The position numbers and the translations under genes were made by a program. A stretch of DNA of 64,000 nt, from NCBI RefSeq assembly GCF_004364315.1, contig NZ_SOBR01000001.1:682578-746577 (forward strand), written 5' to 3'. The notes beneath the pieces are model-generated. The model was given only the letters and a program-made list of their open reading frames with translations. It had not been told where the DNA came from and ran no database searches. The stretch comes from Chromohalobacter marismortui. Its GTDB lineage: Bacteria; Pseudomonadota; Gammaproteobacteria; Pseudomonadales; Halomonadaceae. Positions 7,542 to 35,608 of the stretch are shown piece by piece (the first letter of the stretch is position 1; every line of letters begins with the position of its first letter).

Positions 7542-7570
7542 AACGGCGCCCGAGCCGAGGGCGCCGTTTT
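7542..7570. terminator. Bidirectional intrinsic terminator between ugd and yeiH
   Basis: AACGGCGCCC pairs with GGGCGCCGTT across a 7-base loop, flanked by A and T runs, so it can end both the plus-strand ugd and the minus-strand yeiH transcripts. Confidence 0.85.
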
Positions 7571-7581
7571 GCGTTGGTGGC

Positions 7582-8580
7582 TCAGTGCATGAGCCAGGGC
7601 GTCACCCAGCCACCACCGATCAGCAGCAGCAGGAACAGGATCAGGGCCAGCAGGAACGGCTTGACGCCCAGCGCCTTGAGCTTTTCCAGACGCGTCTCGA
7701 AGCCCAGTGCCGCCATCGCCATGGCCAGCGCGATCTGACCGGCCACCACCAGCGACTGATGCAGCGCTTCCGGCAGAGTAACGACGCTGTTGAAGATCAC
7801 CATGGCCAGAAAGCCGAAGGCGAACCAGGGAATCACCAGGCCACCACGGCCGACTTCCGAGCCGCCTTCCGCCTGCCGGTGACGGAGCCACCACTGGCCG
7901 ACCACCAGCAGAAAGGGCACGAGCAGCATCACCCGGACGAGCTTGACGATGACCGCATTGGCCAGCGCCTGGGGACCGACCGCGTCGCCGGCGGCGACCA
8001 CCTGGGCCACCTCATGCACGGTGGCGCCGATGTAGATGCCGAACAAGCCCTCGTCCATGCCGGTGAGAGGATAGAGCAAGGGGTATACCAGCATCGCCAG
8101 CGAGCCGAACAGCACGACGGTGGCCACGGCCATCGAGGTGGCGGCCGGCTTCGAACGGATGGTGGTCTCGGTGGCGAGTACGGCGGCGGCGCCGCAGATG
8201 GCACTGCCGGCACTCGTGAGCAGAGCGGTCTCGCGATCGAGCCCCAGCAGGCGTGTGCCGATCCAGTACCCGGCGGTCAGGATGGTGCAGATTACCAGGG
8301 CATCGAGCATGATGACCTTGGGACCGAGGCCGAGAATCTGCTGTAACGTCAACGACAGGCCGAACAGCACGATGCCGCCGCGCAGCAGCCAGCGAGTCGC
8401 GAACTGTAGCCCGCGGCTTGCCTGGGGCAGGCGCCCGCCGACAGGCAGGTTGCCGACCACGAGACCCAAGAGTAGCGAGAAGACCAGTGGACTGATGCCG
8501 CTTTCGCGGATGCCGGGCAGGTGAGCCAGGGTGAAGCCCCCCAGGGTCAGGCCGGCGCACAGTATCAATCCCTGCCACAT
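7582..8580 (-). CDS. yeiH: YeiH-family (UPF0324) putative sulfite/sulfate exporter
   Basis: A 332-residue polytopic membrane protein, about ten spans, of the family once called conserved hypothetical 698. Recognisable parts are SPLVFSLLLGLVVGNLP near residue 30, GIVLFGLSLTLQQI near 75, and GSAICGAAAV near 125. Family members near sulfonate degradation genes have been proposed to export sulfite or sulfate. The start at 8580 has GGAGA seven bases upstream. It is divergent from a YeiE-type regulator and lies 2 kb from the sulfolactate cluster, which releases sulfite. Its role here as a sulfite valve is inference. Confidence 0.85.
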   Translation of the reverse strand: MWQGLILCAGLTLGGFTLAHLPGIRESGISPLVFSLLLGLVVGNLPVGGRLPQASRGLQFATRWLLRGGIVLFGLSLTLQQILGLGPKVIMLDALVICTILTAGYWIGTRLLGLDRETALLTSAGSAICGAAAVLATETTIRSKPAATSMAVATVVLFGSLAMLVYPLLYPLTGMDEGLFGIYIGATVHEVAQVVAAGDAVGPQALANAVIVKLVRVMLLVPFLLVVGQWWLRHRQAEGGSEVGRGGLVIPWFAFGFLAMVIFNSVVTLPEALHQSLVVAGQIALAMAMAALGFETRLEKLKALGVKPFLLALILFLLLLIGGGWVTPWLMH

Positions 8581-8652
8581 GAGACATTCTCCGATGATGG
8601 GCGGTACCGCCATGGATGTGTCCCTTTAGGCTAATCAGGAATAGACTTATGT

Positions 8653-8668
8653 GTTATGTGGTAATAAC
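8653..8668. promoter_or_regulatory. Candidate LysR operator between yeiH and yeiE
   Basis: GTTAT and ATAAC form an inverted repeat with a 6-base spacer, giving the T-N11-A pattern typical of LysR binding sites. It is centred in the 113-base divergent gap, a usual place for autoregulation and control of yeiH. Confidence 0.45.
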
Positions 8669-8693
8669 GAAATGACAGTTAAGTAAAACCGAT

Positions 8694-9584
8694 ATGTCGA
8701 CCCATGTGACCTTTCGCCAACTCCAGGTATTCGTTGCCGTGATTCGTGGCGGCGCCGTCAATGCGGCCGCGCGTCACTTGCGTCTTTCCCAGTCGGCGAC
8801 CAGCCAGGCACTGGCCGATCTGGAACGTCAGCTCGGCGTGGTGCTCTTCGAACGGCTGGGGCGTCGTCTAGAGCTCAACGATGCCGGCCGTCGATTGCTC
8901 CCGTACGCCGAGAAAGTGCTCAACGGGCTCGATGAGCTGGTCGATGCGGTGCGTGAGCCCGACGGCGAACTGCGGGGCACGCTGCACGTCGCGGCCAGCG
9001 CCACGATCGGCACCTATCTGCTGCCGATGCTGGCCGGACGGTTCAGCGAGCGGCATCCCGCCGTCGATCTGCAACTGCGGCTGCGCAACACCGAGGACGT
9101 GATGCGCGACATTCAGCGCTTCGACGCCGACCTGGGATTGATCGAGGGGCAGTGCAGCGAATCACGGCTGGTCAGCGAACTCTGGTGTCAGGACGAGATG
9201 GTGGTGGTGGCCGCGCCCCAGCACCCGCTGGTGACACACGATGGCCTCGGGGTTGAGGAACTGCAGGCGGCGCAATGGATCCTGCGTGAACCGGGCTCGG
9301 GGACGCGGGCGATCTTCGAAGCGGCCATCCACCCCCACGTCGAGCGCATCCGCGTGCGCATGGAGCTCGATCAGCACGAAGCGATCAAGCAGGCGGTGCG
9401 CGCCGGCTTCGGGTTGGGCTGCCTGTCACGGCTGAGCGTGGCGAGCGAACTCGAGCGCGGCGAACTGGTAGCGTTGAAAAGCCCGCTGCAACTGACCCGC
9501 TCCTTTTCGCTGGTCTGGCATCCCGAGCGCTACCGCAGCCCGCTGTGGCAGGCGTTCAAGGTCTTCTTGCGCGAGTCCGGCTAG
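8694..9584 (+). CDS. yeiE: LysR-family regulator, YeiE-like
   Basis: A 296-residue LysR protein. The helix-turn-helix spans about residues 5-64 (FRQLQVFVAVIRGGAVNAAA, then LSQSATSQALADLERQLG), followed by a CysB-like effector domain. The pairing with a divergent yeiH is the arrangement known for YeiE in enterobacteria, where it has been linked to sulfite tolerance. No strong ribosome binding site precedes the ATG; the sequence before it is A-rich. It probably responds to sulfite or a related sulfur compound and controls yeiH. Confidence 0.85.
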   Translation: MSTHVTFRQLQVFVAVIRGGAVNAAARHLRLSQSATSQALADLERQLGVVLFERLGRRLELNDAGRRLLPYAEKVLNGLDELVDAVREPDGELRGTLHVAASATIGTYLLPMLAGRFSERHPAVDLQLRLRNTEDVMRDIQRFDADLGLIEGQCSESRLVSELWCQDEMVVVAAPQHPLVTHDGLGVEELQAAQWILREPGSGTRAIFEAAIHPHVERIRVRMELDQHEAIKQAVRAGFGLGCLSRLSVASELERGELVALKSPLQLTRSFSLVWHPERYRSPLWQAFKVFLRESG

Positions 9585-9639
9585 CGTCACTTGCGGTGTC
9601 GGCCGTCGTCCACTTCGTTTCCCCTCCCTCCGCGAGTCG

Positions 9640-9813
9640 CCAGCGATCCGTGACTCCTTGATCCGTTCTCACGCTGACGGGTTTGTCGTGCGATTTCGTC
9701 ATGTCGCGGCTCGGCAAATGACGTCTTCGTCCTTGACTGTCAACGGCGCCGATGCCTTCGCCGATCTGGTCGCCGGGCAGACCGCCGCGGCCAAGATCGT
9801 GCTCACTCCCTGA
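9640..9813 (+). pseudogene. Degenerate 3' end of a zinc-type (MDR) alcohol dehydrogenase
   Basis: This frame is open through 9813 and ends GADAFADLVAGQ-TAAAKIVLTP-stop, which reads like the last 25 residues of medium-chain dehydrogenases, where a substrate-loop helix is followed by a final strand. The upstream part of the frame still resembles the family only loosely (FVVRFRHVAARQ), and there is no room for the missing 280 or so residues after yeiE. I read it as a decayed remnant. The match is by eye and short. Confidence 0.4.
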
Positions 9814-9882
9814 TCCTCCGGCGGTCGTCCGGTAAATCCTGGGTGGCCGCCGGTCCTTTCCGCCACACAACGCTGGCCATCG

Positions 9883-10680
9883 TTACAGGCGACTGGTGTA
9901 GCAATATTCCCGGGTGGTCAGCCTCGAAACGCGTAGCTCGATGGGCGTGTCCTGATAGTCCCGTGCCACGCGACGAATCTCGATCAAAGGCTCGCCGAGT
10001 TCCACACCCAGGTGGGCGGCGTCCTGTTCGCCTGCCTTCACCGCCACGAGCCGTTCGTCGGCATGCGCGACAGTGGCGCCGTATTGATGCTGGTAGAGCT
10101 GATAGAGCGTGTTGGGCAGTATCTCCGGCTGCGACGCGAGATCGGCGAAGGTGGCGGCATCGAGCACGATATCCTCGAGCAGCGTCGGACTGCCGGCCAG
10201 TTCGCGGACCCGACGGATGTGGATCACGTCGGCTCTGTCGCTCAGTTCCAGGGCGTCACGCTCGACGGTAGTCGCCCTGCGTCGCTGCCGGCTCAGAACG
10301 CGTGACACGGGCAGGCTGCGCTCGCCGTCGCGGCGTACCACGTTGAAGAAGCGAAACAGGGCGCGATCGGCATCGTGGGTGGCGACGGCCGTGCCCTTGC
10401 CCTGACGACGGACCACGACGCTGTCGCTGACCAGTTCGTCGAGTGCCTTGCGCAGGGTGCCGACGCTGACGTTGTAGCTGGCGGCCAGCGCTGCCTCGCT
10501 GGGAATGAAGGTACCCGGCGGCCACTCCCCCGAGGCGATCCTTTCCAGAAGCAAGTCCTTGATCTGCTTGTAAAGCGGCTGAAATGTCGGGCCTTTCGGC
10601 GCGGTCATTGAGTCGACGTCCTTGTGAATGGGTGGCGATGCGAAAGTGTCATTCTGGGAATTGTACCTGGCGATCGCCAT
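9883..10680 (-). CDS. suyR: GntR/HutC-family regulator of sulfolactate genes (SuyR)
   Basis: A 265-residue regulator with a GntR winged helix at about residues 34-97 (IPSEAALAASYNVSVGTLRK) and a C-terminal UTRA effector domain. The start at 10680 has AAGGAG eight bases upstream; a shorter form from 10608 (MTAPKGP) also has a plausible site. It is divergent from suyA across 102 bases. A regulator called SuyR is part of the published C. salexigens cluster as I recall it. It likely represses the operon until sulfolactate or a metabolite binds. Confidence 0.85.
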   Translation of the reverse strand: MAIARYNSQNDTFASPPIHKDVDSMTAPKGPTFQPLYKQIKDLLLERIASGEWPPGTFIPSEAALAASYNVSVGTLRKALDELVSDSVVVRRQGKGTAVATHDADRALFRFFNVVRRDGERSLPVSRVLSRQRRRATTVERDALELSDRADVIHIRRVRELAGSPTLLEDIVLDAATFADLASQPEILPNTLYQLYQHQYGATVAHADERLVAVKAGEQDAAHLGVELGEPLIEIRRVARDYQDTPIELRVSRLTTREYCYTSRL

Positions 10681-10713
10681 GTCGGCATCTCCTTGACTGT
10701 TTTATATACTATG

Positions 10714-10725
10714 TCATATACATGA
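10714..10725. promoter_or_regulatory. Candidate SuyR operator in the suyR-suyA gap
   Basis: TCATATACATGA is a near-palindrome (10 of 12 positions symmetric) inside the only AT-rich patch of the divergent gap, next to TATATACTATG. HutC-type regulators favour such AT-rich symmetric sites. Binding is inferred. Confidence 0.35.
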
Positions 10726-10782
10726 GTTGACGGCGAGATCATCAACGCCGTCACGACAACGAGACCAATGAAGGAGAGGAGC

Positions 10783-11067
10783 ATGAGCATCGATTTCGTG
10801 GTCCACGATGCCGACGACGCGGTTGGCGTGGTGGTGGTGGAAGGGGTGGAGGCCGGTCAGATGCTGACTGGCTGGGTGATGGATCAGGACAGGACCCTGC
10901 AGTTCGAGGTCAAGGATGCGATTCCGATCGGCCACAAGCTGGCGACACGCGATCTCGCCGAAGACGAGGCGGTCATCAAGTACAGCGTCGATATCGGCCG
11001 GGTGGTGCAGTCGATTCGCCAGGGCGAGCACGTTCACGTTCACAACGTCAAGACCAAGAGGTGGTAA
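10783..11067 (+). CDS. suyA: (R)-sulfolactate sulfo-lyase, small subunit
   Basis: A 94-residue SAF-domain protein like the N-terminal part of altronate dehydratase (UxaA), with [20 protein letters not shown] and the histidine-rich end [12 protein letters not shown]. With SuyB it forms the lyase that splits (R)-3-sulfolactate to pyruvate and sulfite (EC 4.4.1.24). The start at 10783 follows AAGGAGAGGAGC; an ATG at 10768 overlaps that site and is not used. It is immediately followed by suyB. Identity as sulfolactate lyase rather than another UxaA-type dehydratase rests on the surrounding genes. Confidence 0.87.
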
Positions 11068-11069
11068 GC

Positions 11070-12239
11070 ATGGAACTCAAAGGACGCACTTTCCTCGGCT
11101 ATCGGCGCGACAACGGCCGTGTCGGCATCCGCAATCACGTCATCGTGCTGCCGGTGGACGACATTTCGAATGCCGCGGCGGAAGCGGTGGCCAACAACAT
11201 CAAGGGCACGCTGGCATTGCCGCACCCCTATGGCCGGTTGCAGTTCGGCGCCGACCTGGATTTGCATTTCCGTACGCTGATCGGTACCGGCTGCAACCCT
11301 AACGTCGCCGCGGTGATCGTGATCGGCATCGAGCCCGGCTGGACCGGCAAGGTAGTCGACGGCATTCGCGCCACCGGCAAGCCGGTCGAAGGCTTCTGGA
11401 TCGAGCAGAACGGCGACCACACCACCATTGCCAACGCCTCGCGCAAGGCCCGCGAGTTCGTGCAGTACGCCAGCGAGTTGCAGCGCGAGCCGTGTGACGT
11501 CAGCGAGCTATGGGTCTCCACCAAGTGCGGCGAATCCGACACTACCTCCGGATGCGGCGCCAATCCCACCGTCGGCGAAGCCTTCGACAAGCTCTACGCC
11601 CAGGGCTGCACGCTGGTGTTCGGCGAGACCTCCGAGCTGACCGGCGGCGAGCACCTGGTCGCGGCGCGCTGTGCCAACGATGACGTGCGCGAACGGTTCC
11701 AGGCGATGTTCGACCGCTACAGCGCGATGATCGACCGCCACAAGACCAGCGATCTCTCCGAATCGCAGCCCACCAAGGGCAACATCGAAGGCGGGCTGAC
11801 CACCATCGAGGAAAAGGCGCTGGGCAACATTCAGAAGATCGGCAAGAAATGTCGGGTCGATGGCGTTCTCGACAAGGCGGAAATTCCCACCGGACCGGGA
11901 TTGTGGTTCATGGACTCCTCCTCGGCGGCGGCCGAGATGGTCACGTTGTGCGCGGCCTCGGGGTACGTGGCGCATTTCTTTCCGACAGGCCAGGGCAACG
12001 TGATTGGCAATCCGATCCTGCCGGTGATCAAGCTCTGCGCCAATCCGCGCACGGTGCGCACGATGAGCGAGCACATCGACGTCGATGTCTCGGGGGTACT
12101 GCGTCGGGAGATCAACCTGCCGCAGGCGGGGGACCAACTGCTCGAGATGCTGCTGCGTACGGCCAACGGGCGCCACACCAACGCCGAGGCGTTGGGACAT
12201 CGGGAGTTCGTACTGACGCGGCTCTACGAAAGTGCATGA
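11070..12239 (+). CDS. suyB: (R)-sulfolactate sulfo-lyase, large subunit
   Basis: A 389-residue UxaA-family large subunit. [15 protein letters not shown] near residue 10 and a cysteine-rich [15 protein letters not shown] near residue 150 are family signatures; the cysteines probably hold an iron-sulfur cluster that acts as a Lewis acid. [13 protein letters not shown] and [12 protein letters not shown] follow in the C-terminal half. SuyB does the carbon-sulfur bond cleavage. It starts 2 bases after suyA ends. The next gene is 185 bases away, separated by a hairpin, so transcript level may change there. Confidence 0.9.
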
Positions 12240-12365
12240 GGCGAAAGAAGAGTGTCGCCGGATATTCGGTTGGTGCTAATACAATCGATGCTGCGTTCCG
12301 GCATGCCGGTCACGGCAGCAGCAAGACAGCAAGGCGTATTCGCTGCAGGGCGGATACGCGGCATG

Positions 12366-12385
12366 TCGGGAGCCTGTAGGCTCCC
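12366..12385. repeat. Perfect hairpin between suyB and the TctC gene
   Basis: CGGGAGCC-TGTA-GGCTCCCG forms an 8-base-pair stem with a 4-base loop and no T run after it. It looks more like a processing or mRNA-stabilising hairpin than a terminator, 37 bases before the start of the binding-protein gene. Confidence 0.6.
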
Positions 12386-12424
12386 GGTAACCGACACACA
12401 ATAACAGCAATATCGGAGTCAACC

Positions 12425-13408
12425 ATGCGCCAGATTCGCTTCAAGACCCTGAAAACGGCCGCTCTCCTCGGCGGTCTGCTAAGTGCGACCACGTTCGCCG
12501 GTCTCGCCACGGCGGCCGGTGTCGAGGATTTCCCCGACCGTAACATCCAATACATCATTCCCTTTGGTCCCGGCGGTGAGTCGGATATTAGCGCTCGATT
12601 GCAGCAGAAGTATTTCCAGGAAATCACCGGCCAGCAATTGATCATCCAGTACATGGCCGGCGGCGGTGGGGCGGTCGGCTGGTCCCAGCTCAACGAAATG
12701 GATGGCGATGGCTACACCATCATGGGCACCAACCTGCCGCACATCATTCTCAAGCCAATGGGCAAGGATCCGGGCTTCAAGACGGAAGATCTCAAGAACT
12801 TCTATTACTTCCACTATTCGCCGGATGCGCTGATCGTCAGAAACGACAGCCCTTACAAGACCCTCGATGACTTGATCGCCGCCGCCAAGAAGGCCCCGGG
12901 CAGCGTGACCGTGTCAGGCAGCGGAACCCAGTCCGCCAATGACATCGCCAACCGGCGCTTTGAGTCGCTTGCCGACGTCAAGACCACCTACATCCCGTTC
13001 AAGGGAACCGGGGCGGCGGTCACGGCCCTGCTGGGCGGCCAGGTACAGGCCGAGTGGGGCTACACCACTACCGCCGCCAACCACGATGACAAGGTGCGTA
13101 TGCTGGCGGTGGCCGCCGAGCAACGCCACCCGCTGTTTCCCGACGTGCCGACCTTCAAGGAGCTGGGTTACAACATGACCGGTGGGGCCTATCGCGGCAT
13201 GGCGGTACCCAAGGGAACCCCGGAAGACGTGACTCTCAAACTCTCTGGCATCTTTCAGCAGATCAATCAGAACCCGGAGTTCCGCAAGAAGATGCAGGAC
13301 CTCGGGTTCGTGCTGATCGACGTGCCGTACATGAAGATGGCCGACTTCATGGCCAAGCGACGTGCCGAATACGAGAAGGTGGCACGTGAAATGGGCATCA
13401 TCGACTGA
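12425..13408 (+). CDS. slcH: Sulfolactate TTT transporter, periplasmic binding protein (TctC type)
   Basis: A 327-residue TctC-family protein with a signal peptide over about residues 1-30 (basic start, then LLGGLLSATTFAGLATAA). The mature start EDFPDRNIQYIIPFGPGGESD keeps the family ligand loop, with GGESD in place of the common GGGTD. It should capture sulfolactate in the periplasm for the two permeases that follow. The published uptake system is named SlcHFG; assigning H to this subunit is my inference. Confidence 0.85.
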   Translation: MRQIRFKTLKTAALLGGLLSATTFAGLATAAGVEDFPDRNIQYIIPFGPGGESDISARLQQKYFQEITGQQLIIQYMAGGGGAVGWSQLNEMDGDGYTIMGTNLPHIILKPMGKDPGFKTEDLKNFYYFHYSPDALIVRNDSPYKTLDDLIAAAKKAPGSVTVSGSGTQSANDIANRRFESLADVKTTYIPFKGTGAAVTALLGGQVQAEWGYTTTAANHDDKVRMLAVAAEQRHPLFPDVPTFKELGYNMTGGAYRGMAVPKGTPEDVTLKLSGIFQQINQNPEFRKKMQDLGFVLIDVPYMKMADFMAKRRAEYEKVAREMGIID

Positions 13409-13425
13409 GTTGACCGATGTTCATC

Positions 13426-13446
13426 GGGGCCCTGACGGGCCCCTTT
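13426..13446 (+). terminator. Hairpin between binding-protein and permease genes, partial terminator
   Basis: GGGGCCC-TGAC-GGGCCCC followed by only TTT. Such weak terminators after binding-protein genes commonly let the binding protein be made in excess over the membrane subunits. Confidence 0.55.
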
Positions 13447-13462
13447 CGGTAGGGAGAAGTGC

Positions 13463-14974
13463 ATGGATACCTTGAGTTTCATGGCCGCAGCCCTGTCTCC
13501 GGTCAACCTGATGCTGGCGGTCGTCGGTGTCGCCGCCGGTATTCTCATCGGTGCGTTGCCCGGGCTTTCGGCCACCATGGCCGTGGCGGTCCTGGTGCCG
13601 GTGACCTTCGGCATGTCGCCCGAGAGCGCGCTGATCATGCTGGGAGCGATCTATACCGGTGCCATCTATGGTGGATCGTATGCGGCGATTCTGGTCAATA
13701 CACCCGGGACCCCCTCGGCCATCGCCACCACCTTCGACGGCTACCCCATGGCCAAGCGCGGGGATGGTGATCTGGCGGTCACGCTCTCCACGCTCTCGTC
13801 GATGGTCGGCGGCCTCATGGGAGCGCTGGCCTTGCTGACGCTGGCGCCGCTGCTGGCACAGATCGCCTTGAAGTTCGGTCCGGTGGAGTACTTCTGGCTG
13901 GCGATCTTCGGCCTGACTTTGATTTCGGCACTTTCTGAGGGCTCGACCCTCAAGGGCTTCATCGGCGCGGGGCTTGGGCTGTTGCTGTCCACGGTCGGCG
14001 TGTCGGTGATCGGTGCCGACATACGCTATGCGTTCGGCTCCCAGTTCCTGCTCGGTGGGGTGGAAACCATCTCGGCATTGATCGGGCTTTATTGCGTGCC
14101 GGTGCTGATCGATCTGGTGGCCACGCCGAGCGCGCATCTCAAGCCACCCGAGAAAGGCAGAGGCATTCGTCTCGGCGAAGGGCTCTCGCTGATGTGGCGT
14201 GGCAAGTTCAATGCCCTGCGCAGTGCCGTCATCGGAACCGCGGTGGCCATCCTGCCCGGTGCGGGCGGGTCGATCGCCAGCCTGGTCTCCTACTCGGAGG
14301 CGCGACGCACCTCGACACGCAGCGACAACTTCGGCAAAGGCGAGCCGGACGGCGTGATCGCCACCGAGACCGCCAACAACGCCACCGTTGGCGGCGGCTT
14401 CATTCCTACCTTCGTACTGGGCATTCCCGGTACGCCGCCGGACGCGGTGATCCTCGGTGCGCTGCTGGTCCAGGGGTTTCGCACCGGACCGGAAATGTTC
14501 ACCACCAACGTGAGCGTCACCTACACCTTCATCGGCGGACTGTTCATCGCCACGCTGCTGATGCTGCCGATCGGCCTGCTGATCGGGCGTTACGCCTTCA
14601 AGTCGATCGTCACCATTCCCAAGGCACTGCTGGTACCCAGCATCGCCTTCATGACGATCATCGGCACCTATGCGATCCGTAACAATCCCTTCGATGTGGT
14701 GGTGATGGTGGTGCTGGGCATCGTCGGCTGGGTGCTGTCGCGCTATGGGGTGAAACCGTCACCTATCGTGCTGGGGCTGATCCTCGGGCCGATCGCCGAG
14801 CAGGGGTTCGTTCAAGGATATCTGATCGGCAATGCCTCAGGCTCGGTGTTCGGTGCTTTCTTCGGGCAGCCGCTATCGCTGGCGATCATCGCGATGGTGC
14901 TGCTGTCGGTGCTGTTCCCGTTATGGCGTGGCTGGCGCCAGCGTTCATCCAAGGAGACGGCTCATGGCCACTGA
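13463..14974 (+). CDS. Sulfolactate TTT transporter, large permease (TctA type)
   Basis: A 503-residue protein with about 11-12 membrane spans. It shows the TctA hallmarks: GALPGLSATMAVAVLVPVTF near residue 30, LVNTPGTPSAIATTFDGYPM near 80 and FVLGIPGTPPDAVILGALL near 315. A start at 13463 follows GGGAGAAGTGC. It overlaps the small permease gene by 11 bases, so the two are translationally coupled. It is one of the Slc permeases; I do not assign F or G. Confidence 0.92.
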   Translation: MDTLSFMAAALSPVNLMLAVVGVAAGILIGALPGLSATMAVAVLVPVTFGMSPESALIMLGAIYTGAIYGGSYAAILVNTPGTPSAIATTFDGYPMAKRGDGDLAVTLSTLSSMVGGLMGALALLTLAPLLAQIALKFGPVEYFWLAIFGLTLISALSEGSTLKGFIGAGLGLLLSTVGVSVIGADIRYAFGSQFLLGGVETISALIGLYCVPVLIDLVATPSAHLKPPEKGRGIRLGEGLSLMWRGKFNALRSAVIGTAVAILPGAGGSIASLVSYSEARRTSTRSDNFGKGEPDGVIATETANNATVGGGFIPTFVLGIPGTPPDAVILGALLVQGFRTGPEMFTTNVSVTYTFIGGLFIATLLMLPIGLLIGRYAFKSIVTIPKALLVPSIAFMTIIGTYAIRNNPFDVVVMVVLGIVGWVLSRYGVKPSPIVLGLILGPIAEQGFVQGYLIGNASGSVFGAFFGQPLSLAIIAMVLLSVLFPLWRGWRQRSSKETAHGH

Positions 14975-15446
14975 CAACGATACGCCGCTGCTCGATGCAC
15001 GACCGTCGGATCGCATTCTGGCATTGGTGATGATCGTCATCGCCAGCGGGGCGCTCACGTTCAGTCGTGACATGTCGATCATGGCCAGTGTCTTTCCACG
15101 CACCATCGCCGTACTGTTGCTGGTATTCAGCGTGGCACTGCTGGCCAAGAGCTTCGTGGCGCATCCCCGGCGGGTCCGTCCCGAGCCAGGCAGCGTTGGG
15201 CGTCGACTCGGACTGATCGCCGTGATGCTCGTCTGGAGCTTCGCGCTCAAGTGGTTGGGGTTTCTGTTCGCCAGTGTCGCGAGTGCGGCACTGCTGGCTG
15301 GTCTCGCTCACTACCATGCCTGGACACGCCGGCGGCTGATCGGCTATTCGCTAGCCCTGGCCTTGATCATCGGCGGCTTCTACATCCTGTTCGCCATCGT
15401 CCTCAACGTACCGCTCCCGGCGGGACTCCTGTGGCGCCATTTCTAA
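14964..15446 (+). CDS. Sulfolactate TTT transporter, small permease (TctB type)
   Basis: A 160-residue hydrophobic protein with four predicted spans, in the size range of TctB. The start at 14964 has AAGGAG seven bases upstream; an in-frame ATG at 14832 lies inside the large permease gene and is not supported. Unusually the order here is TctC-TctA-TctB, while the other set at 1-2014 runs C-B-A. It ends 18 bases before slcC. Confidence 0.85.
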   Translation: MATDNDTPLLDARPSDRILALVMIVIASGALTFSRDMSIMASVFPRTIAVLLLVFSVALLAKSFVAHPRRVRPEPGSVGRRLGLIAVMLVWSFALKWLGFLFASVASAALLAGLAHYHAWTRRRLIGYSLALALIIGGFYILFAIVLNVPLPAGLLWRHF

Positions 15447-15464
15447 CCGAACGAGACTTCTGAC

Positions 15465-16394
15465 ATGTCTGACGTACTCATCAGTGAATTCATGGACGAG
15501 GCGGCCGTCGCCGATCTCGAAAAGGACTGCTCGGTGACCTTCGATGCCACGCTGGTCGATGATCGCGCCCGCTTGCTGTCATCCGGGACCGGGGTGCGTG
15601 CCCTGATCGTGCGCAATCGTACCCGCGTCGACCGCGAGCTCCTGGCGCGCTTCCCCGACCTGAGAGCGGTAGGCCGGCTGGGCGTGGGGCTCGACAACAT
15701 CGACGTGGATGCCTGTCGTGAGTCCGGTATCACCGTCCTGCCGGCGACTGGGGGCAATACCGTGTCGGTGGCGGAGTACGTGCTGACCGGGATCTTCATG
15801 CTGCGCCGCGGCGCCTATCTGTCGACGCCGCGGGTGCTGGCGGGCGAATGGCCGCGTCAGGCGCTGATGGGACACGAGACGCAAGGGGCGACCCTGGGGC
15901 TCGTTGGGTTCGGCGGCATCGCCCGCGATCTGGCCCGGCGCGCCCAATGCCTGGGCATGCAGGTGATGGCCCATGATCCTTTCGTGCCCGCGGATGACGC
16001 CGCCTGGCAGACGGTCGAGCGTGCCGAGCGGTTGGCGACGCTGCTGGAGAAGGCGGATGCGGTCAGTCTGCACGTGCCGTTGAGCGAGGGGACCCGGAAT
16101 CTGATCGATGCCGAAGCACTGGCGACGATGAAGCCCGGAAGCCTGCTGATCAATACCGCGCGGGGTGGCATCGTCGATGAAAGGGCATTGGCTGCCAGCC
16201 TGCGTGACAGGCATCTGGGCGGGGCGATGCTGGATGTCTTCGAGGAAGAGCCGTTGACTGCCGACTCGGTGTTGAGCGGTGTCGAGGGCTTGATCGCCAC
16301 GCCGCACATCGCCGGCGTAACACACGAGTCCAACGAGCGGATCAGCTGGATCACCGTCGACAACGTGCGCCGTGCGCTGGGGGGGAGGGCATGA
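15465..16394 (+). CDS. slcC: (S)-sulfolactate dehydrogenase
   Basis: A 309-residue D-2-hydroxyacid dehydrogenase. The NAD loop is GLVGFGGIARDLA near residue 145. The catalytic residues are an Arg in NTARGGIVDE near 230, a Glu in DVFEEEPL near 260 and a His in TPHIAGVT near 285. In C. salexigens SlcC oxidises (S)-sulfolactate to 3-sulfopyruvate (EC 1.1.1.310). With ComC, which reduces sulfopyruvate to the (R) form, it acts as a two-enzyme racemase that feeds SuyAB. The stop overlaps the comC start by four bases. Without the context it would be called a phosphoglycerate dehydrogenase-like protein. Confidence 0.9.
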   Translation: MSDVLISEFMDEAAVADLEKDCSVTFDATLVDDRARLLSSGTGVRALIVRNRTRVDRELLARFPDLRAVGRLGVGLDNIDVDACRESGITVLPATGGNTVSVAEYVLTGIFMLRRGAYLSTPRVLAGEWPRQALMGHETQGATLGLVGFGGIARDLARRAQCLGMQVMAHDPFVPADDAAWQTVERAERLATLLEKADAVSLHVPLSEGTRNLIDAEALATMKPGSLLINTARGGIVDERALAASLRDRHLGGAMLDVFEEEPLTADSVLSGVEGLIATPHIAGVTHESNERISWITVDNVRRALGGRA

Positions 16395-17392
16395 GCCGCA
16401 TGGTATCGCTGATCGAGGCCGAAACGCTGGCGGTCGCGGCACTCGAGGCGGTCGGTGTGCCGCGCTGGGAGGCCGAGGTCACGGCCCGGGCACTGATCGA
16501 CGCCGAACGTGACGGGCTGGCGTCCCACGGCTTGTCACGGTTGCCGTTCTATCTCGCCCAGGCGCGCAGTGGCAAGGTCGTCGCCGATGCGCAGGCGCGG
16601 GTCGAGGTCGCCGGTTCGGTGATTCGGGTCGATGCCCGACACGGCCTGGCGTTTCCGGCCATCGCCCGGGGCGTGGAGCGCGCCATTCCGCTGGCCCGCG
16701 AGCTGGGACTGGTCGCCGTGGCGATCGGTGGTTCGCACCATTTCGGGGTCGCCGGCGCGCCGGTCGAACGCCTGGCCCGCGAGGGACTGGTGGCGATGGC
16801 CTTCAGCAATGCGCCTTCGGCCATGGCGCCGTGGGGGGGGAAGCGTCCGCTCTACGGCACCAACCCGATCGCGTTCGCGACGCCACGACGGGGGACCGAT
16901 CCGCTGGTCATCGACCTGTCCTTGTCGAAGGTCGCCCGGGGCAAGGTGATGCTGGCCAAGAAGGCCGGCGAGCCGATTCCCGAAGGCTGGGCGCTCGACA
17001 TCGAGGGACGGCCTACGACCGACCCGGACGCGGCGATCGCGGGCAGCATGGTTCCAGCCGGTGATGCCAAGGGGGCCTCGCTGGCGTTGATGGTGGAATT
17101 GCTGACCGCCGGACTCACCGGTAGCCACTTCGGCTTCCAGGCGAGCTCCTTCTTCGAGCCCGACGGCGAGGCGCCGAGTGTCGGCCACCTGATGCTGGCC
17201 TTCGATCCGGCCCACTTCTCCGATGGTTACCTCGAGCACATCGAGGCACTGTTCCAGGCCATGCTCGAGCAGGAAGGCGTGCGGCTGCCCGGCACCCGGC
17301 GCCATGTCTTGCGCCGCGAACGCGGCGAGTCGCTAGAGTTGCCTGAGGCCGTGGTCGACGAGCTGCGTGCCTATGCCGCGTCCCGCGTGTAA
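16391..17392 (+). CDS. comC: (R)-sulfolactate dehydrogenase, malate/L-lactate dehydrogenase type
   Basis: A 333-residue member of the Ldh2/malate dehydrogenase family, which does not use the Rossmann fold. Recognisable stretches are DGLASHGLSRLPFYL near residue 37, GGSHHFGVAG near 115 and GTNPIAFATPRRG near 155. ComC interconverts sulfopyruvate and (R)-sulfolactate (EC 1.1.1.272). It is the last gene of the operon, coupled to slcC by an ATGA overlap, and meets a minus-strand glycosyltransferase 22 bases later. I see no clear terminator there. Confidence 0.9.
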   Translation: MSRMVSLIEAETLAVAALEAVGVPRWEAEVTARALIDAERDGLASHGLSRLPFYLAQARSGKVVADAQARVEVAGSVIRVDARHGLAFPAIARGVERAIPLARELGLVAVAIGGSHHFGVAGAPVERLAREGLVAMAFSNAPSAMAPWGGKRPLYGTNPIAFATPRRGTDPLVIDLSLSKVARGKVMLAKKAGEPIPEGWALDIEGRPTTDPDAAIAGSMVPAGDAKGASLALMVELLTAGLTGSHFGFQASSFFEPDGEAPSVGHLMLAFDPAHFSDGYLEHIEALFQAMLEQEGVRLPGTRRHVLRRERGESLELPEAVVDELRAYAASRV

Positions 17393-17414
17393 CGGGCCTC
17401 CGGGTCGCATGGTC

Positions 17415-18494
17415 TCAGGCTGAACGGGCCAGCGCCTCGAACTGGGGTAGCACGGTCTCCTTGAGGAAGGGGCGGTAATGCGCTTCGGTGACAGTGACGG
17501 GCGCGGCATCCATGCGGGCGATGGCATCGGCCAGGGCCGCTTCGTCCTCGCGGGGCACGAGGAAGTCGGCAAGTTCGCCGGCGAGTATCTCGCGGGGGCC
17601 GGAGGGGCAGTCGACGCTGACCACGGGGGTTCCCAGCAGCAGCGATTCGATGAGCGCGCGGGGCAACCCTTCGGCGTCCGAGGTCAGGATCAAGGCCTTG
17701 GCACGGCGAATGAACGGATAGGGGTTGGTCTGGTAGCCGGGCAGAAGGACGCGCTCGGCGAGGCCCATGTCCTCGATCATCGTGCGCAGCCTGGCTTCTT
17801 CGTCGCCCTTGCCCTTGCCCAGCAGGACCAGCGGAGTCGTCACGCCGCTGGCCTTGTAGGCGCGCAGCAGGCGGTCATGACGCTTGCGGGGCTCGTAGGT
17901 CCCGACATTGATCAGGTACTCGCCCTCCGGTACCGGCGCCGGCGCCTCGGCCAGGCGCAGGAAGGGGGCTCGCTCGTAGGGGTTGTAGATGGCGCGAATC
18001 TCGGCGGGCCGGAGGCCGATGACGTCGAGCAGATTGTCCTTGACGCCCTGGGAGACGGCGACGACATTGCGCCCGGTATAGAAGCGGTGCACCTTGGCGA
18101 AGGCCTTGGCGCGCTGGTCGGGATCGCTGAATTTCGCCGAGATGTCGCTCTTGATCCAGAACCACAGGTTGGGATGGCGCAGGTGGCGCGTGATCTTGTC
18201 GCACGAGCAGGAGAGCACCACGTCGGCGGCGAAGGCGTCGAGGGTCCTGGCGATGCGCGCGGCCTGCCATTTCTCCACCAGCGGCGTCGAGAACATCTTG
18301 CTGAACCGGTTGATGAGCGCGAGATTCTCCACCGTGACGCCATCCGGAATCGGTTGCTCGATTCTGTCGCGCAGGATGAACACCTTGACCGTGTGACCGC
18401 GTTGATGGAGGCCGGCGGCCGTGTACAGCAGCGATTTTTCCGCGCCGCCGCCGTAGAGATCGGCGATGACGAAGGCGAAGCGTTTGGGCGTCAT
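17415..18494 (-). CDS. Glycosyltransferase family 4
   Basis: A 359-residue GT-B enzyme. The N-terminal acceptor domain has DLYGGGAEKSLLYTAAGL, in which GGAE is the usual GT4 loop. The C-terminal donor domain has VGTYEPRKRHDRLLRAY near residue 200 and SDAEGLPRALIESLLLGTPVV near 285, with the E-x7-E pair. It probably adds a hexose or heptose to LPS core or a surface glycan. Together with the kinase-like gene upstream on the same strand (30 bases apart) it forms a small operon. Confidence 0.85.
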   Translation of the reverse strand: MTPKRFAFVIADLYGGGAEKSLLYTAAGLHQRGHTVKVFILRDRIEQPIPDGVTVENLALINRFSKMFSTPLVEKWQAARIARTLDAFAADVVLSCSCDKITRHLRHPNLWFWIKSDISAKFSDPDQRAKAFAKVHRFYTGRNVVAVSQGVKDNLLDVIGLRPAEIRAIYNPYERAPFLRLAEAPAPVPEGEYLINVGTYEPRKRHDRLLRAYKASGVTTPLVLLGKGKGDEEARLRTMIEDMGLAERVLLPGYQTNPYPFIRRAKALILTSDAEGLPRALIESLLLGTPVVSVDCPSGPREILAGELADFLVPREDEAALADAIARMDAAPVTVTEAHYRPFLKETVLPQFEALARSA

Positions 18495-18524
18495 GGCATC
18501 ATCCTTGAATCGAGGGAAGAAGGC

Positions 18525-19235
18525 TCACGCAGGCTGACCGAGTCGCTCGTGAAGGTAGCCGTGAGCGAAACGGCGGTAGCGATCGCCTTTCAGTTTGCTG
18601 GGACTCAGCATGGCATCGATGGCCTGGCGTCGCCGTTCGCAGTGGCGAGGCAGGCGCTTGACATGGGTGTCGATCCACACGATGTCGCCTTTGGCATCGA
18701 CCCAGACATTGCCATAGTGAAAATCGCGATGACAGTAGCCGTGGTGTATCAAGACGGCCGCGTCATCGCATAACCGGCGTATGAACGCCAGGCGAGCCGC
18801 TTCATCGAGGCGCAGGAAATAGGTCTCGCCGGATTCGCCGCTGGTCAGGTATTCCATGGCGAGCAGCGAGCCCAGGGGGTTGAGCGGATTGAGTGCCAGC
18901 CCCACGCCCCGGCAGGCCACGGTCTTGAGTCCCGCTCTGCTGATGAGACGATTCGAGCGCCATTCCTTGAGCGCATCGAAGCCGCCCAGCAGCCGTTTTT
19001 CGAGGATATCGCGCAGCCACCAGTTGAGCGGCTGACGATGTGCCGTGAATTTGTCGGCGATCAGCTTGAACAGGGTATTCGAGCGCGGCTCGAGGAAGAA
19101 CCGACTACTGCCGACGGCCTCCATGTATCGAGTGGTCTCGGGCTGCTGCAGCGCGATGTGGCTGGGAAACGGAAAGCGTGTGCGCAGGTAATACCAGCGC
19201 GGCACACCGTTCAGCGAGACTCGATACAGGGGCAT
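18525..19235 (-). CDS. Lipopolysaccharide kinase-like protein (Kdo/heptose kinase fold)
   Basis: A 236-residue protein with the catalytic loop HRDFHYGNVWVD near residue 170 and IVWIDTH near 186, standing in for the DFG metal site. This matches the Kdo kinase/InaA group of small protein-kinase-like enzymes that phosphorylate LPS core sugars. The usual nucleotide-binding lysine region is hard to place. The start lacks a strong ribosome binding site. It is divergent from manC and cotranscribed with a glycosyltransferase, which supports an LPS role. Confidence 0.75.
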   Translation of the reverse strand: MPLYRVSLNGVPRWYYLRTRFPFPSHIALQQPETTRYMEAVGSSRFFLEPRSNTLFKLIADKFTAHRQPLNWWLRDILEKRLLGGFDALKEWRSNRLISRAGLKTVACRGVGLALNPLNPLGSLLAMEYLTSGESGETYFLRLDEAARLAFIRRLCDDAAVLIHHGYCHRDFHYGNVWVDAKGDIVWIDTHVKRLPRHCERRRQAIDAMLSPSKLKGDRYRRFAHGYLHERLGQPA

Positions 19236-19390
19236 GCTGAGATAACGGCCTTACGTAATAGGTAGGGCGCTAATGCTCTATAAGCGCTAGACGCTTGTCA
19301 AGGTAATGACACAATGGGACTGGCGATCCACGTGAGCACTGCGTAACGTGATAGCCGTGCGACAGATCATTTTGCACGAGGAGCCCTCGC

Positions 19391-20818
19391 ATGTTGACGC
19401 CCGTGATTCTCGCCGGAGGTAACGGCACACGCCTGTGGCCGCTGTCGCGACGGGATACGCCCAAGCAGTTTCTTCCCTTGCTGGAACGACGCAGCATGCT
19501 GCAGGCGACGTTGGCGCGTCTCGATGGCCTGACGACCGCGATGCCCATCGTGGTGTGCGCCGATGCCCAGCGGTTTTTGGTGGCCGAGCAACTGCGCGAG
19601 ATGGGGCGCGAGGCGGAGATCGTGCTGGAGCCCGAGGGGCGCGACACGGCGCCTGCCATTGCCCTGGCGGCCCTGTGCCAGCAGGCACGCTGCGTAGACG
19701 ACAGCGGTGACGGTGGGGCGTTATTGGTACTGCCCGCCGATCACTACATCGCGGATGTAGCGGCGTTTCACGAGGCGCTCGAGCGGGCACAATCGGCGGC
19801 GATGCAAGGCGCATTCGTCACCTTCGGTATCGTGCCGCGCCATCCCGAGACCGGCTACGGCTACCTGCAAGTGGACGACATCAGCGCAGGCCTGCAGCCG
19901 CTCAGACGTTTCGTGGAAAAGCCCGATGCCATGCGGGCCAGGGCATTCCTCGAGGCGGGGCGTTATCTGTGGAACAGTGGGATGTTCCTGATGCAAGGCG
20001 AGCGTTATCTGCAAGTGCTGGCGGGCCTGCGGCCCGAGATGCATGATGCAGTGACCGCGGCCTGGGCGGCGCGACGCACGGATCTCGATTTCCTGCGCCC
20101 CGATGCGCCGACGTTCGCCGCCTGCGAACGCGAGTCGGTGGACTACGCGGTCATGGAGCATATCGATAAGGCGGTGGCGGTCACGCTCGATGCCGGCTGG
20201 TCGGACGTGGGGTCGTTCCAGGCATTGTGGGACATCGCCGAGAAAGATGCCGACGGCAATGTGCTACGCGGCGATACGGTGGTCGAGGCGACGCGCGATA
20301 CCTGGGTACAGAGTCAATCGCGCCTGGTGGCGACGCTGGGCATCGAGGGGTTGGTCGTCGTGGAGACCGCCGACAGTGTGTTGGTGGCCGATCGGCGCCG
20401 CGCTCAGGATATCAAGACCCTGGTGGCGCGGCTCGACGCCCAGGGGCGTCGCGAAAGCGCGGCACATCGCTGCGTCTATCGCCCGTGGGGCAGTTACGAA
20501 AGCCTGGAAAACGGGCCGCGCTTTCAAGTCAAGCATATCCGCGTGCGTCCCGGCGCGCGCCTGTCGCTGCAACGCCACCATCATCGTGCCGAGCATTGGG
20601 TGGTGGTGTCCGGCACCGCGCGGGTGACCCGGGGCGAAGAGCACTTTCTGCTCAGCGAGAACCAATCCGTGTATATCCCGCTGGGGGTCGAGCATCGCCT
20701 CGAAAATCCGGGGCGCATCGACCTGGAGATGATCGAAATTCAAAGTGGCGCCTATCTCGGCGAGGACGATATCATCCGCCTCGATGACGATTATCGACGC
20801 GATACGAACGACGAGTAA
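19391..20818 (+). CDS. manC: Mannose-1-phosphate guanylyltransferase / mannose-6-phosphate isomerase
   Basis: A 475-residue type II bifunctional enzyme. The N-terminal nucleotidyltransferase domain begins with VILAGGNGTRLWPLSR at residues 5-20 and includes RFVEKP near 176. The C-terminal cupin isomerase domain begins at YRPWGSYE near 363 and carries QRHHHRAEHW and IPLGVEHRLENPG. It makes GDP-mannose from mannose-6-phosphate or fructose-6-phosphate. It sits alone on the plus strand, next to glycosyltransferase genes that could use GDP-mannose. AlgA and CpsB are equivalent names. Confidence 0.93.
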   Translation: MLTPVILAGGNGTRLWPLSRRDTPKQFLPLLERRSMLQATLARLDGLTTAMPIVVCADAQRFLVAEQLREMGREAEIVLEPEGRDTAPAIALAALCQQARCVDDSGDGGALLVLPADHYIADVAAFHEALERAQSAAMQGAFVTFGIVPRHPETGYGYLQVDDISAGLQPLRRFVEKPDAMRARAFLEAGRYLWNSGMFLMQGERYLQVLAGLRPEMHDAVTAAWAARRTDLDFLRPDAPTFAACERESVDYAVMEHIDKAVAVTLDAGWSDVGSFQALWDIAEKDADGNVLRGDTVVEATRDTWVQSQSRLVATLGIEGLVVVETADSVLVADRRRAQDIKTLVARLDAQGRRESAAHRCVYRPWGSYESLENGPRFQVKHIRVRPGARLSLQRHHHRAEHWVVVSGTARVTRGEEHFLLSENQSVYIPLGVEHRLENPGRIDLEMIEIQSGAYLGEDDIIRLDDDYRRDTNDE

Positions 20819-25901: not shown

Positions 25902-27281
25902 TCACGTGGACCGGCGCGGAGTGACGCCGGCCTGCGGTTGATGCGCTTCTTCGGACGTCGGGGCACCGCCGGGCAGCAGCAGCGTACACAGGATGGCGCT
26001 CAGCCCGCCCGTGGTGATCGGCGAGGCGAAGATCTGCCGCGCCGTGTCCGGCAGCCCCGACAGCGCCTCGGGCACCAGCTGCACGCCGAGACCCATGCCC
26101 AGCGAGACGGCGATGGTCATGATCGTCTTGCGGGTCATCGCCTGGTCGCTGAGGATACGGATGCCCGATACCGCGATCAGGCCGAACATCAAGGTCGTGG
26201 CGGCGCCGAGCACGGGACGCGGGATGTACTGCAGCACGCTGCCCAGCGCCGGTATGAGTCCCAGCAGCAACAGGATCGCTGCCACGTAGCGGCCGACGTG
26301 GCGGCTGGCCACGCCGGTGAGCTGCACCACACCGGTGTTCTGGCTGAAGGTGGTATTGGGGAAGGTGTTGAAAAGAGCGGCGAGCAGCGAGTTGACGCCG
26401 TCGGCGAGCACGCCGCCGCGCAACCGACGTTGGTGAACGGGGCCGCTGATGGGTTCGCCCGAGGCGCGCGCGGTGCCGGTCAGGTCGCCGACGGTTTCGA
26501 TGGCGGTCACCAGAAAGATGAAGGCCACGGGCACGAAGGCTGCCCAGTCGAAGCCGATGCCGAAACGCAGCGGTTGCGGCAGCGCGAACCAGCGCAGCGA
26601 CTCGAGTTCGGCGTTGAAGTGCCCCGTGAACACGGCGGCCACGCAACCGATGACCAGGCCGTAGAAGACCGAGCCGATGCGCAGCCAGGGATGGCGGGAC
26701 ATCTGGCAGGCCAGGACCACCACGATGACCAGGGCCGCCAGGCCCAGATTGGCGAGGCTGCCGAAATCCTCGGCGCCCACGCCGCCTGCCATGTCGGTGA
26801 CGCCGACCTTGACCAGCGAGAGTCCGATCAGCGTCACCACCACGCCGGTGACGGTGGGCGTGATGATGCGCTTGAGACGATGCAGCATGCCGCCGAGGGC
26901 GATCTCGATGAAGCTGCCCAGCGTGCAGACGCCGATCAACGTGGCGATCACGGCCTCGTCGCTGGCGCCGCTGGTGCGCGCTGCCTGGCCGGCGGCGATG
27001 AGTGCCGCGACGAATGAAAAGCTGGTGCCTTGAATGCTCAACAGGCCTGAGCCCAGCGGACCGAGACGCTGCGACTGGATCCAGGTGGCCACGCCGGAGA
27101 CGAACAGCGCCATGCTGAGCAGGTAGGGCAGGTACTGCTCCAGTCCCAGCGCGCCGCCCACGATCAGACTGGGGGCGATGATTCCCACGAAGCTGGCCAG
27201 GACATGCTGGAAAGCGGCCAGCAGCGAGGCCAGCGGGCCGGGGCGATCCTCGAGGCGGTAAACCGGGCTATCGGCTGACAT
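25902..27281 (-). CDS. NCS2 xanthine/uric acid permease
   Basis: A 459-residue nucleobase:cation symporter-2 with about 14 spans. The family signature reads QNTGVVQLTGVASRHVG near residue 310, and FVPVAFIFLVTAIETVGDLTGT near 258 holds the substrate-binding Glu. Close known members are XanP/XanQ and UacT; which of xanthine or urate is carried cannot be decided by eye. It lies between guaD and hpxO in the purine locus, with 135 bases upstream that could hold its own promoter. Confidence 0.88.
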   Translation of the reverse strand: MSADSPVYRLEDRPGPLASLLAAFQHVLASFVGIIAPSLIVGGALGLEQYLPYLLSMALFVSGVATWIQSQRLGPLGSGLLSIQGTSFSFVAALIAAGQAARTSGASDEAVIATLIGVCTLGSFIEIALGGMLHRLKRIITPTVTGVVVTLIGLSLVKVGVTDMAGGVGAEDFGSLANLGLAALVIVVVLACQMSRHPWLRIGSVFYGLVIGCVAAVFTGHFNAELESLRWFALPQPLRFGIGFDWAAFVPVAFIFLVTAIETVGDLTGTARASGEPISGPVHQRRLRGGVLADGVNSLLAALFNTFPNTTFSQNTGVVQLTGVASRHVGRYVAAILLLLGLIPALGSVLQYIPRPVLGAATTLMFGLIAVSGIRILSDQAMTRKTIMTIAVSLGMGLGVQLVPEALSGLPDTARQIFASPITTGGLSAILCTLLLPGGAPTSEEAHQPQAGVTPRRST

Positions 27282-27321
27282 GGCTTGGCTCCTTGAGCCC
27301 GCGTCTCTGCGTCGGGCGTTA

Positions 27322-27329
27322 TGTATACA
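27322..27329. promoter_or_regulatory. TGTATACA palindrome upstream of the purine permease
   Basis: An 8-base palindrome inside TATGTATACAAAATC, about 40 bases upstream of the permease start. Sites of this shape are common for GntR-type regulators, but no GntR gene adjoins it, so the call is weak. Confidence 0.25.
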
Positions 27330-27416
27330 AAATCATGTAGCAATGACCAAGCAAGCGGAATGCCAAGTTGACGTGGCGGTCAGGCCCCATGACAGCGCGA
27401 CCGTGGCGCGACGCGG

Positions 27417-28778: not shown

Positions 28779-28833
28779 GGGGCATGCTCTCTTGGCGTGG
28801 CTGGCCGAGACGCTCAAGGCGTCCGGCCAAGGA

Positions 28834-33509: not shown

Positions 33510-33563
33510 CGGAGTGTCCGTCGGGTTGTCATTGTGATCCGAGGTGCGCACGCACGTATCGAC

Positions 33564-35531: not shown

Positions 35532-35608
35532 TGGTCGGAGCGACTGGATTCGAACCAGCGACCTCTGCAACCCCATTGCAGCGCGCTACCAAGCTGCGCC
35601 ACGCTCCG
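35532..35608 (-). tRNA. tRNA-Pro, anticodon GGG
   Basis: On the minus strand a complete 77-base cloverleaf can be folded. The acceptor stem is CGGAGCG/CGCTCCG, the D arm GCGC/GCGC, and the anticodon stem CTGCA/TGCAG with loop ATGGGGT, giving anticodon GGG. The T arm contains GGTTCGAATCC, and the CCA end is encoded. It stands alone and is followed by a strong terminator. It reads CCC and CCU proline codons. Confidence 0.95.

Follow-up and report, generated by a model that had tools for sequence, protein, structure and literature searches.

Gene content and organization of the locus

A 64,000-bp stretch of Chromohalobacter marismortui DNA, called the window below, was analyzed for a putative sulfolactate catabolic locus. 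It covers positions 682578-746577 of contig 1 in a genome of 3.55 Mb and 23 contigs. The locus consisted of eight genes, in which suyR on the minus strand pointed away from seven plus-strand genes in the order suyA-suyB-tctC-tctA-tctB-slcC-comC (Table 1). The frames of tctA and tctB overlapped, as did those of slcC and comC. A preliminary description of this DNA had presented these genes as one locus, and all eight were recovered at the same coordinates and in the same order. It made no mention of the yeiE-yeiH pair (7582-9584), which lies immediately to the left of the eight genes.

Table 1. Features of the suy locus and its left neighbors (positions are those of the window)
Feature	Position	Strand	Description
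yeiH / suyZ-like	7582-8613	-	Putative sulfite/sulfate exporter, YeiH family (PSE, PF03601)
yeiE-like LysR regulator	8694-9584	+	Divergent from yeiH; LysR domains; possible sulfite sensor
Presence/absence block	9566-17430	.	Between yeiE and a glycosyltransferase gene; about 7.9 kb
suyR	9883-10680	-	GntR-type regulator with UTRA domain; PF00392 and PF07702
Proposed suyA promoter	10693-10725	+	Putative TTGACT at 10693 and TATACA at 10717
Candidate SuyR operator GTCATATACATGA	10713-10725	+	Overlaps the proposed suyA promoter
suyA	10783-11067	+	Predicted (R)-sulfolactate sulfo-lyase, small subunit; SAF domain PF08666, 22.1 bits (cut-off 21)
suyB	11061/11070-12239	+	Predicted (R)-sulfolactate sulfo-lyase, large subunit; GD_AH_second and GD_AH_C
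tctC	12425-13408	+	Solute-binding protein, TctC type; PF03401; putative part of the SlcHFG role
tctA	13463-14974	+	Large membrane subunit, TctA type; PF01970
tctB	14964-15446	+	Small membrane subunit, TctB type, downstream of tctA; PF07331
slcC	15465-16394	+	Probable (S)-sulfolactate dehydrogenase, 2-hydroxyacid dehydrogenase (2HADH) family; PF00389/PF02826 (2-Hacid_dh and 2-Hacid_dh_C)
comC	16391-17392	+	Probable (R)-sulfolactate dehydrogenase, Ldh_2 family; PF02615, 331 bits

The best 80 named loci with a SuyB relative came from halophiles, enterics, Pseudomonas, Burkholderiales and others, with SuyB 78-96% identical to that of the window; the nearest among them was Salinicola tamaricis (96%). 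A SuyR match was present in 62 and a SuyA match in 78 of these loci. The full eight-gene order was found in eight of the 80, and a ninth had the same order with comC not found. A second genome of the genus (G008) carried suyA to comC on one contig, with 71-96% protein identity per gene. Because the same order recurred in eight of the best 80 loci and in this second genome, the arrangement is more than a chance one. All of suyA, suyB, slcC, comC and a tripartite tricarboxylate transporter (TTT) were found in one locus, as in the C. salexigens-type operon.

Identity of SuyAB

The start codon of suyA and its ribosome site were legible in the upstream sequence, and the ATG at 11070 was the likelier start of suyB. 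A SuyB tree was constructed from 45 rows (the window, G008, 21 of the best 80 named loci, and 22 paralogues of the same genus). In this tree, which contained no named characterized SuyB or altronate dehydratase sequence, the 23 SuyB rows formed one side of a branch with 100/99 support, opposite the 22 paralogues. The preliminary description had named clustering of SuyB with altronate or galactarate dehydratases as a reason to reject its reading; the separate clade shows no such clustering with the galactarate-dehydratase family.

Two SuyB paralogues were found in the same genome (33 and 35% identical), and a third class in some genus-mates. One paralogue of the genus scored 875 bits against the galactarate dehydratase model TIGR03248, so that one class is galactarate dehydratase by the curated model; the other two classes scored under the cut-off (351 and 260 bits) and had no specific name, so that none could be recognized as an altronate dehydratase. 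Full-length paralogues of all three classes were fused proteins of about 510-550 residues, and suyA and suyB are separate genes. The pair has a separate small SAF subunit, a large subunit, and a SuyB clade distinct from the galactarate-dehydratase-family proteins.

It is very improbable that the enzymes act on another 2-hydroxy acid (sugar-acid or galactarate-like) with SuyAB as a dehydratase. SuyB does have domains common to galactarate dehydratase, and a galactarate/glucarate TctABC of Halomonas sp. is tabulated in a review of TTT systems (PMC5812351). However, galactarate dehydratase was ruled out as the identity of SuyB by a score of 143 bits against the TIGR03248 cut-off of 730.85, together with the separate, fully supported clade. 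In addition, suyAB in two relatives adjoins genes for a HisD-family dehydrogenase, a short-chain dehydrogenase/reductase (SDR) and a zinc alcohol dehydrogenase (ADH), recalling HpsN/O/P. On sequence grounds, SuyAB is predicted to be a sulfo-lyase that splits (R)-sulfolactate into pyruvate and sulfite.

The two paralogues of the same genome (contig 1, 665246-666277 and 677382-678548) are encoded roughly 27 and 15 kb upstream of suyB; both are fused SuyB paralogues under the galactarate dehydratase cut-off.

SlcC, ComC and the proposed route through sulfopyruvate

SlcC and ComC fall into separate Pfam families (2-Hacid_dh and Ldh_2), in agreement with the earlier view that they are unrelated. 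SlcC was nearest to the phosphoglycerate dehydrogenase model TIGR01327, with 283.8 bits under a cut-off of 454; it is a 2HADH-family protein near SerA, and phosphoglycerate dehydrogenase was rejected as its identity on this score. Residues R233, E262 and H281, together with V49-R50-N51-R52, were invariant in 38 rows. The first three are presumably the catalytic triad of the family (Arg, Glu, His). Alignment with the solved enzyme 1wwk showed SlcC R50-N51 opposite the Arg-Ser of 1wwk, a motif that carries the phosphate-binding arginine (PMC6303947). According to the same paper, SlcC is placed in or beside the SERA clade, and 3-phosphoglycerate was not accepted by the C. salexigens enzyme (PMC6303947). 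The change from Arg-Ser to Arg-Asn could be a mark of a sulfonate substrate.

ComC scored 198 bits against the curated L-sulfolactate dehydrogenase model NF040650, under its cut-off of 500. Its best solved relative was 1wtj (202 bits), a ureidoglycolate dehydrogenase / piperideine-2-carboxylate reductase; the L-sulfolactate dehydrogenase ComC 2x06 was fourth (153 bits). Residues H46, R50, H116 and H117 were invariant in 43 rows. Only matches spanning more than 85% of the query entered the counts of invariance for both enzymes, and a single ComC row interrupted by a stop was left out. The name ComC rests on context, and the substrate of neither dehydrogenase follows from sequence.

A search of the genome for sulfopyruvate decarboxylase alpha (TIGR03845) gave no match, and the Xsc model gave only matches under its cut-off (best 296 versus 676 bits). 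Since neither a decarboxylase alpha nor an Xsc over its cut-off was found, reduction to (R)-sulfolactate was the one exit from sulfopyruvate detected in a search that did not include transamination to cysteate. Because SuyAB would consume the R form directly, SlcC and ComC are expected to work as an S-to-R inverter. The preliminary description had regarded the two enzymes as a racemase; the two-dehydrogenase idea fits the published C. salexigens scheme, but the flow expected here is this inversion and not a two-way one.

In 53 of the best 80 loci, suyB had 5 kb or more of sequence on both flanks; in these loci, SlcC was counted from 45% and ComC from 44% identity over half of the query. Both enzymes were present in 31 of these loci, SlcC alone in one, and neither in 10; the loci of S. 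tamaricis and M. tunisiensis fall among the 10 only because their sequence ends inside tctC. In the remaining 11, ComC was found without a detected SlcC, so that ComC and SuyAB pair alone elsewhere. This would suit a cluster devoted chiefly to cysteate or another source of sulfopyruvate, in which ComC supplies SuyAB with (R)-sulfolactate and SlcC is accessory, and a cysteate route via sulfolactate has been published for Paracoccus pantotrophus (PMC11582611). Such a role is nevertheless unlikely, as there was no aminotransferase among the eight genes from suyR to comC, the operon has its own transporter, and SlcC was kept in the same order in eight of the best 80 loci.

The yeiE-yeiH pair and sulfite

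The YeiH protein scored 256.7 bits against TIGR00698, over the cut-off of 232.6, and 292.6 bits against PF03601, which places it in the YeiH/PSE family; no other PF03601 match was found in the genome. The best NCBIfam match of the YeiE-like protein was NF040889 YeiE (291.8 bits), under the equivalog cut-off of 480. YeiH and SuyZ of P. pantotrophus belong to one transporter family, and SuyZ has been argued to export sulfite (PMC11582611). In Salmonella, yeiH is activated by YeiE when sulfite is present and is the gene most important for sulfite resistance in vitro (PMC12880088). Sulfite is probably the exported species in the present case as well. A search of the genome for the sulfite-oxidase family PF00174 (Oxidored_molyb) gave one match under the cut-off (20.4 versus 24 bits); SoeABC-type oxidizers and TauE-type exporters were outside this search.

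Co-occurrence of SuyB and PF03601 was analyzed in 101 genomes of the family, for which two draws were taken as the same genomes (their identifiers coincided in the rows listed). SuyB was present in 12 genomes and PF03601 in 45, of which 43 were over the PF03601 cut-off. PF03601 was found in 11 of the 12 SuyB genomes versus 34 of the 89 others (Fisher p = 0.00097, uncorrected for relatedness); the value was 0.0003 when only matches over the cut-off were counted. The two genes were on one contig within 10 kb in nine of the 12 genomes. Of the remaining SuyB genomes, one had them about 25 kb apart, one had them on different contigs, and one was without PF03601. YeiH-family matches were also found in 12 of the best 80 SuyB loci, at varied positions. 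No published link of suyAB with yeiH was found in the literature searched.

Candidate SuyR operator and suyA promoter

Comparison of the suyR-suyA regions of Halomonadaceae showed a shared TTGAC-like element and, after it, letters resembling GTCATATACATGA, and the palindrome GTCTTATATAAGAC was found in this region in several other gammaproteobacterial loci. The pattern GTCHTATAYAWGA was written after 20 loci had been viewed, and was searched in up to 400 bases upstream of suyA. It was present in 24 of 78 loci, comprising 15 of the 20 viewed and nine of the 58 held-out loci; for the held-out loci, 0.005 was expected from shuffles and the reversed pattern gave 0. In the genome carrying the window, the pattern matched once, at the suyA site, and the reversed control pattern also matched once.

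The proposed suyA promoter rests on conservation among relatives. A consensus promoter/terminator scan gave one promoter-like and three terminator-like sites, versus 1.5 and 4.4 in shuffles, and its single promoter (10682-10710) differed from the proposed pair. A repeat search gave no clear operator; the candidate box came from the comparison of relatives. No published SuyR operator was found in the literature searched. SuyR may act as a repressor at the candidate site.

Elsewhere in the 78 loci, GTCHTATAYAWGA matched five times. Two matches were between suyR and tctC, in S. tamaricis and M. tunisiensis. The other three, in Enterobacter, Atlantibacter and Erwinia, each immediately preceded the most likely start codon of a gene of the YeiH family. 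The Enterobacter protein passed TIGR00698, and an upstream in-frame ATG is also possible as its start; the Atlantibacter and Erwinia proteins were 41-42% identical to YeiH of the window. The box in front of these genes ties the exporter to the sulfolactate regulator in the three enteric loci.

Presence and absence of the suy block

A SuyB orthologue was found in two of 10 genomes of the genus. Five of the eight genomes without suy had a yeiE more than 70% identical to that of the window, and in all five the yeiH-yeiE pair was at the same site and the block site was empty. The blastn matches stopped at about 9565 and restarted at about 17428-17431, at the glycosyltransferase gene, with 44-55 bases between. 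The suy block is therefore accessory, and yeiE-yeiH is not tied to it. Either gain or repeated loss of the block may explain this distribution, since two other genera also have suyAB beside yeiE.

Comparison of window positions 7560-20801 with one of the five genus-mates showed 81% identity to the left of about 7555 (yeiH), 95% across yeiHE, and 92% to the right of the block; these steps hint at recombination across the site. In G008, suyA to comC were on a 6.9-kb contig and yeiE was at the end of another, so the yeiE-suy adjacency is unproven in that genome.

The position of a general sulfite-stress pair beside suy might be incidental. The pair stands at the same site in five genus-mates without suy, and Salmonella needs it for sulfite stress (PMC12880088). 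We consider an incidental position doubtful, however, in view of the co-occurrence and closeness of SuyB and YeiH in the 101 family genomes, the YeiH-family matches at varied positions in the best 80 SuyB loci, and the SuyR-type box that precedes a gene of the YeiH family in each of three enteric loci.

Proposed pathway

The locus is best read, with a probability of about 0.85, as an inducible operon through which both enantiomers of 3-sulfolactate are catabolized, beside a sulfite-sensing and sulfite-exporting pair. TctCAB, in the SlcHFG role, would import sulfolactate. SlcC would oxidize (S)-sulfolactate to sulfopyruvate, ComC would reduce sulfopyruvate to (R)-sulfolactate, and SuyAB would cleave (R)-sulfolactate, either imported or made by ComC, to pyruvate and sulfite. 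SuyR, bound within the suyA promoter region, would keep the operon repressed until a pathway compound releases it, and the toxic sulfite would be sensed and then pumped out by means of yeiE-yeiH.

Several observations weigh against this reading. None of the curated NCBIfam cut-offs was reached by SuyA, SuyB, SlcC, ComC, SuyR or the YeiE-like protein, and the genes are named from their context and by analogy with C. salexigens. The loci with ComC alone suggest that SuyAB can be supplied by ComC even where SlcC is not detected. The exact GTCHTATAYAWGA box was not found upstream of suyA in 54 of the 78 loci. A SuyR match was present in 39 of these 54, with 46% identity or less to SuyR of the window in 36 of the 39; two loci with a 60% identical SuyR had variants of the box instead of the exact one. 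Finally, yeiE-yeiH was kept in genus-mates without suy, and its role is therefore not restricted to the sulfolactate pathway.

There is an even chance that YeiH-family transporters form a general sulfite outlet of SuyAB pathways through two control circuits. In the halophiles considered here, the suy operon would stand beside the sulfite-sensing yeiE-yeiH; in Enterobacter, Erwinia and Atlantibacter, the yeiH-family gene would be under a SuyR box. The SuyR operator would be GTCHTATAYAWGA, with GTCTTATATAAGAC as its most symmetrical form. Genomic linkage supports YeiH-family proteins as sulfite exporters, a function proposed in PMC11582611 and with its mechanism left open in PMC12880088. Sulfolactate is an intermediate of the breakdown of sulfosugars and of 2,3-dihydroxypropanesulfonate (DHPS), and a candidate SuyR operator is now defined and testable. 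The operon itself is a known pathway in one more genome; what the exporter link and the operator add to it is modest.

Comparison with known systems

The two-dehydrogenase racemase scheme of C. salexigens reportedly comes from Denger and Cook (2010), whose work is known here through papers citing it. These papers describe sulfolactate use by SlcC, ComC and SuyAB (PMC9594981, PMC6303947, PMC11131964, PMC12421959), and the preliminary description was right that this set had already been published. The locus resembles that system in having SuyAB, SlcC, ComC and a TTT transporter, named slcHFG in C. salexigens (PMC5812351, PMC9594981), and tctB is downstream of tctA here, as in slcHFG (PMC5812351). 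Compared with the published description as excerpted, no difference from the C. salexigens system was established. These descriptions, as excerpted, mention neither the yeiE-yeiH link nor the empty site nor the operator.

As in P. pantotrophus, a sulfo-lyase occurs together with a PSE/YeiH-family exporter (PMC11582611). Unlike in P. pantotrophus, the gene for the exporter here diverges from that of a YeiE-like regulator, outside the suyR-comC block. SuyAB with SuyZ in P. pantotrophus is reportedly due to Rein et al. (2005). The divergent LysR regulator and YeiH transporter resemble the YeiE-YeiH pair of Salmonella (PMC12880088); in contrast to Salmonella, the pair flanks a sulfite-producing catabolic operon, and the regulator is under the YeiE equivalog cut-off.

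Relatives with a longer, DHPS-like pathway

In the loci of S. tamaricis and M. tunisiensis, yeiE was followed by suyAB, then by genes for a tripartite ATP-independent periplasmic (TRAP) transporter, for a dehydrogenase of the HisD family, for an SDR and for a zinc ADH, and lastly by suyR and tctC. The S. tamaricis locus had in addition a LacI-type regulator gene between suyAB and the TRAP-transporter genes. This module appears DHPS-like and recalls the HpsN/O/P-SuyAB route, HpsN being, as we assume, of the HisD family. DHPS degradation by HpsN/O/P and SuyAB is described for Cupriavidus pinatubonensis (PMC9594981). A similar set, suyAB with a dehydrogenase module, was present in the two relatives and absent from the genome carrying the window. 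A search of this genome for the module gave one match to the HisD-family protein of the two relatives, which was 34% identical and probably the genome's own HisD; a DHPS module elsewhere in the genome was therefore rejected.

In S. tamaricis, a 111-base suyB remnant (positions 20064-20174 of its locus) was found between suyR and tctC, and an intact suyAB was beside yeiE. The order in the window may be the older one, with a relocation of suyAB in S. tamaricis.

Other features of the window

A probable purine catabolism cluster, with a xanthine/uracil-type permease and xanthine dehydrogenase-type subunits, was located at 25902-33551. The only tRNA found in the window was a tRNA-Pro (ggg) at 35532-35608.

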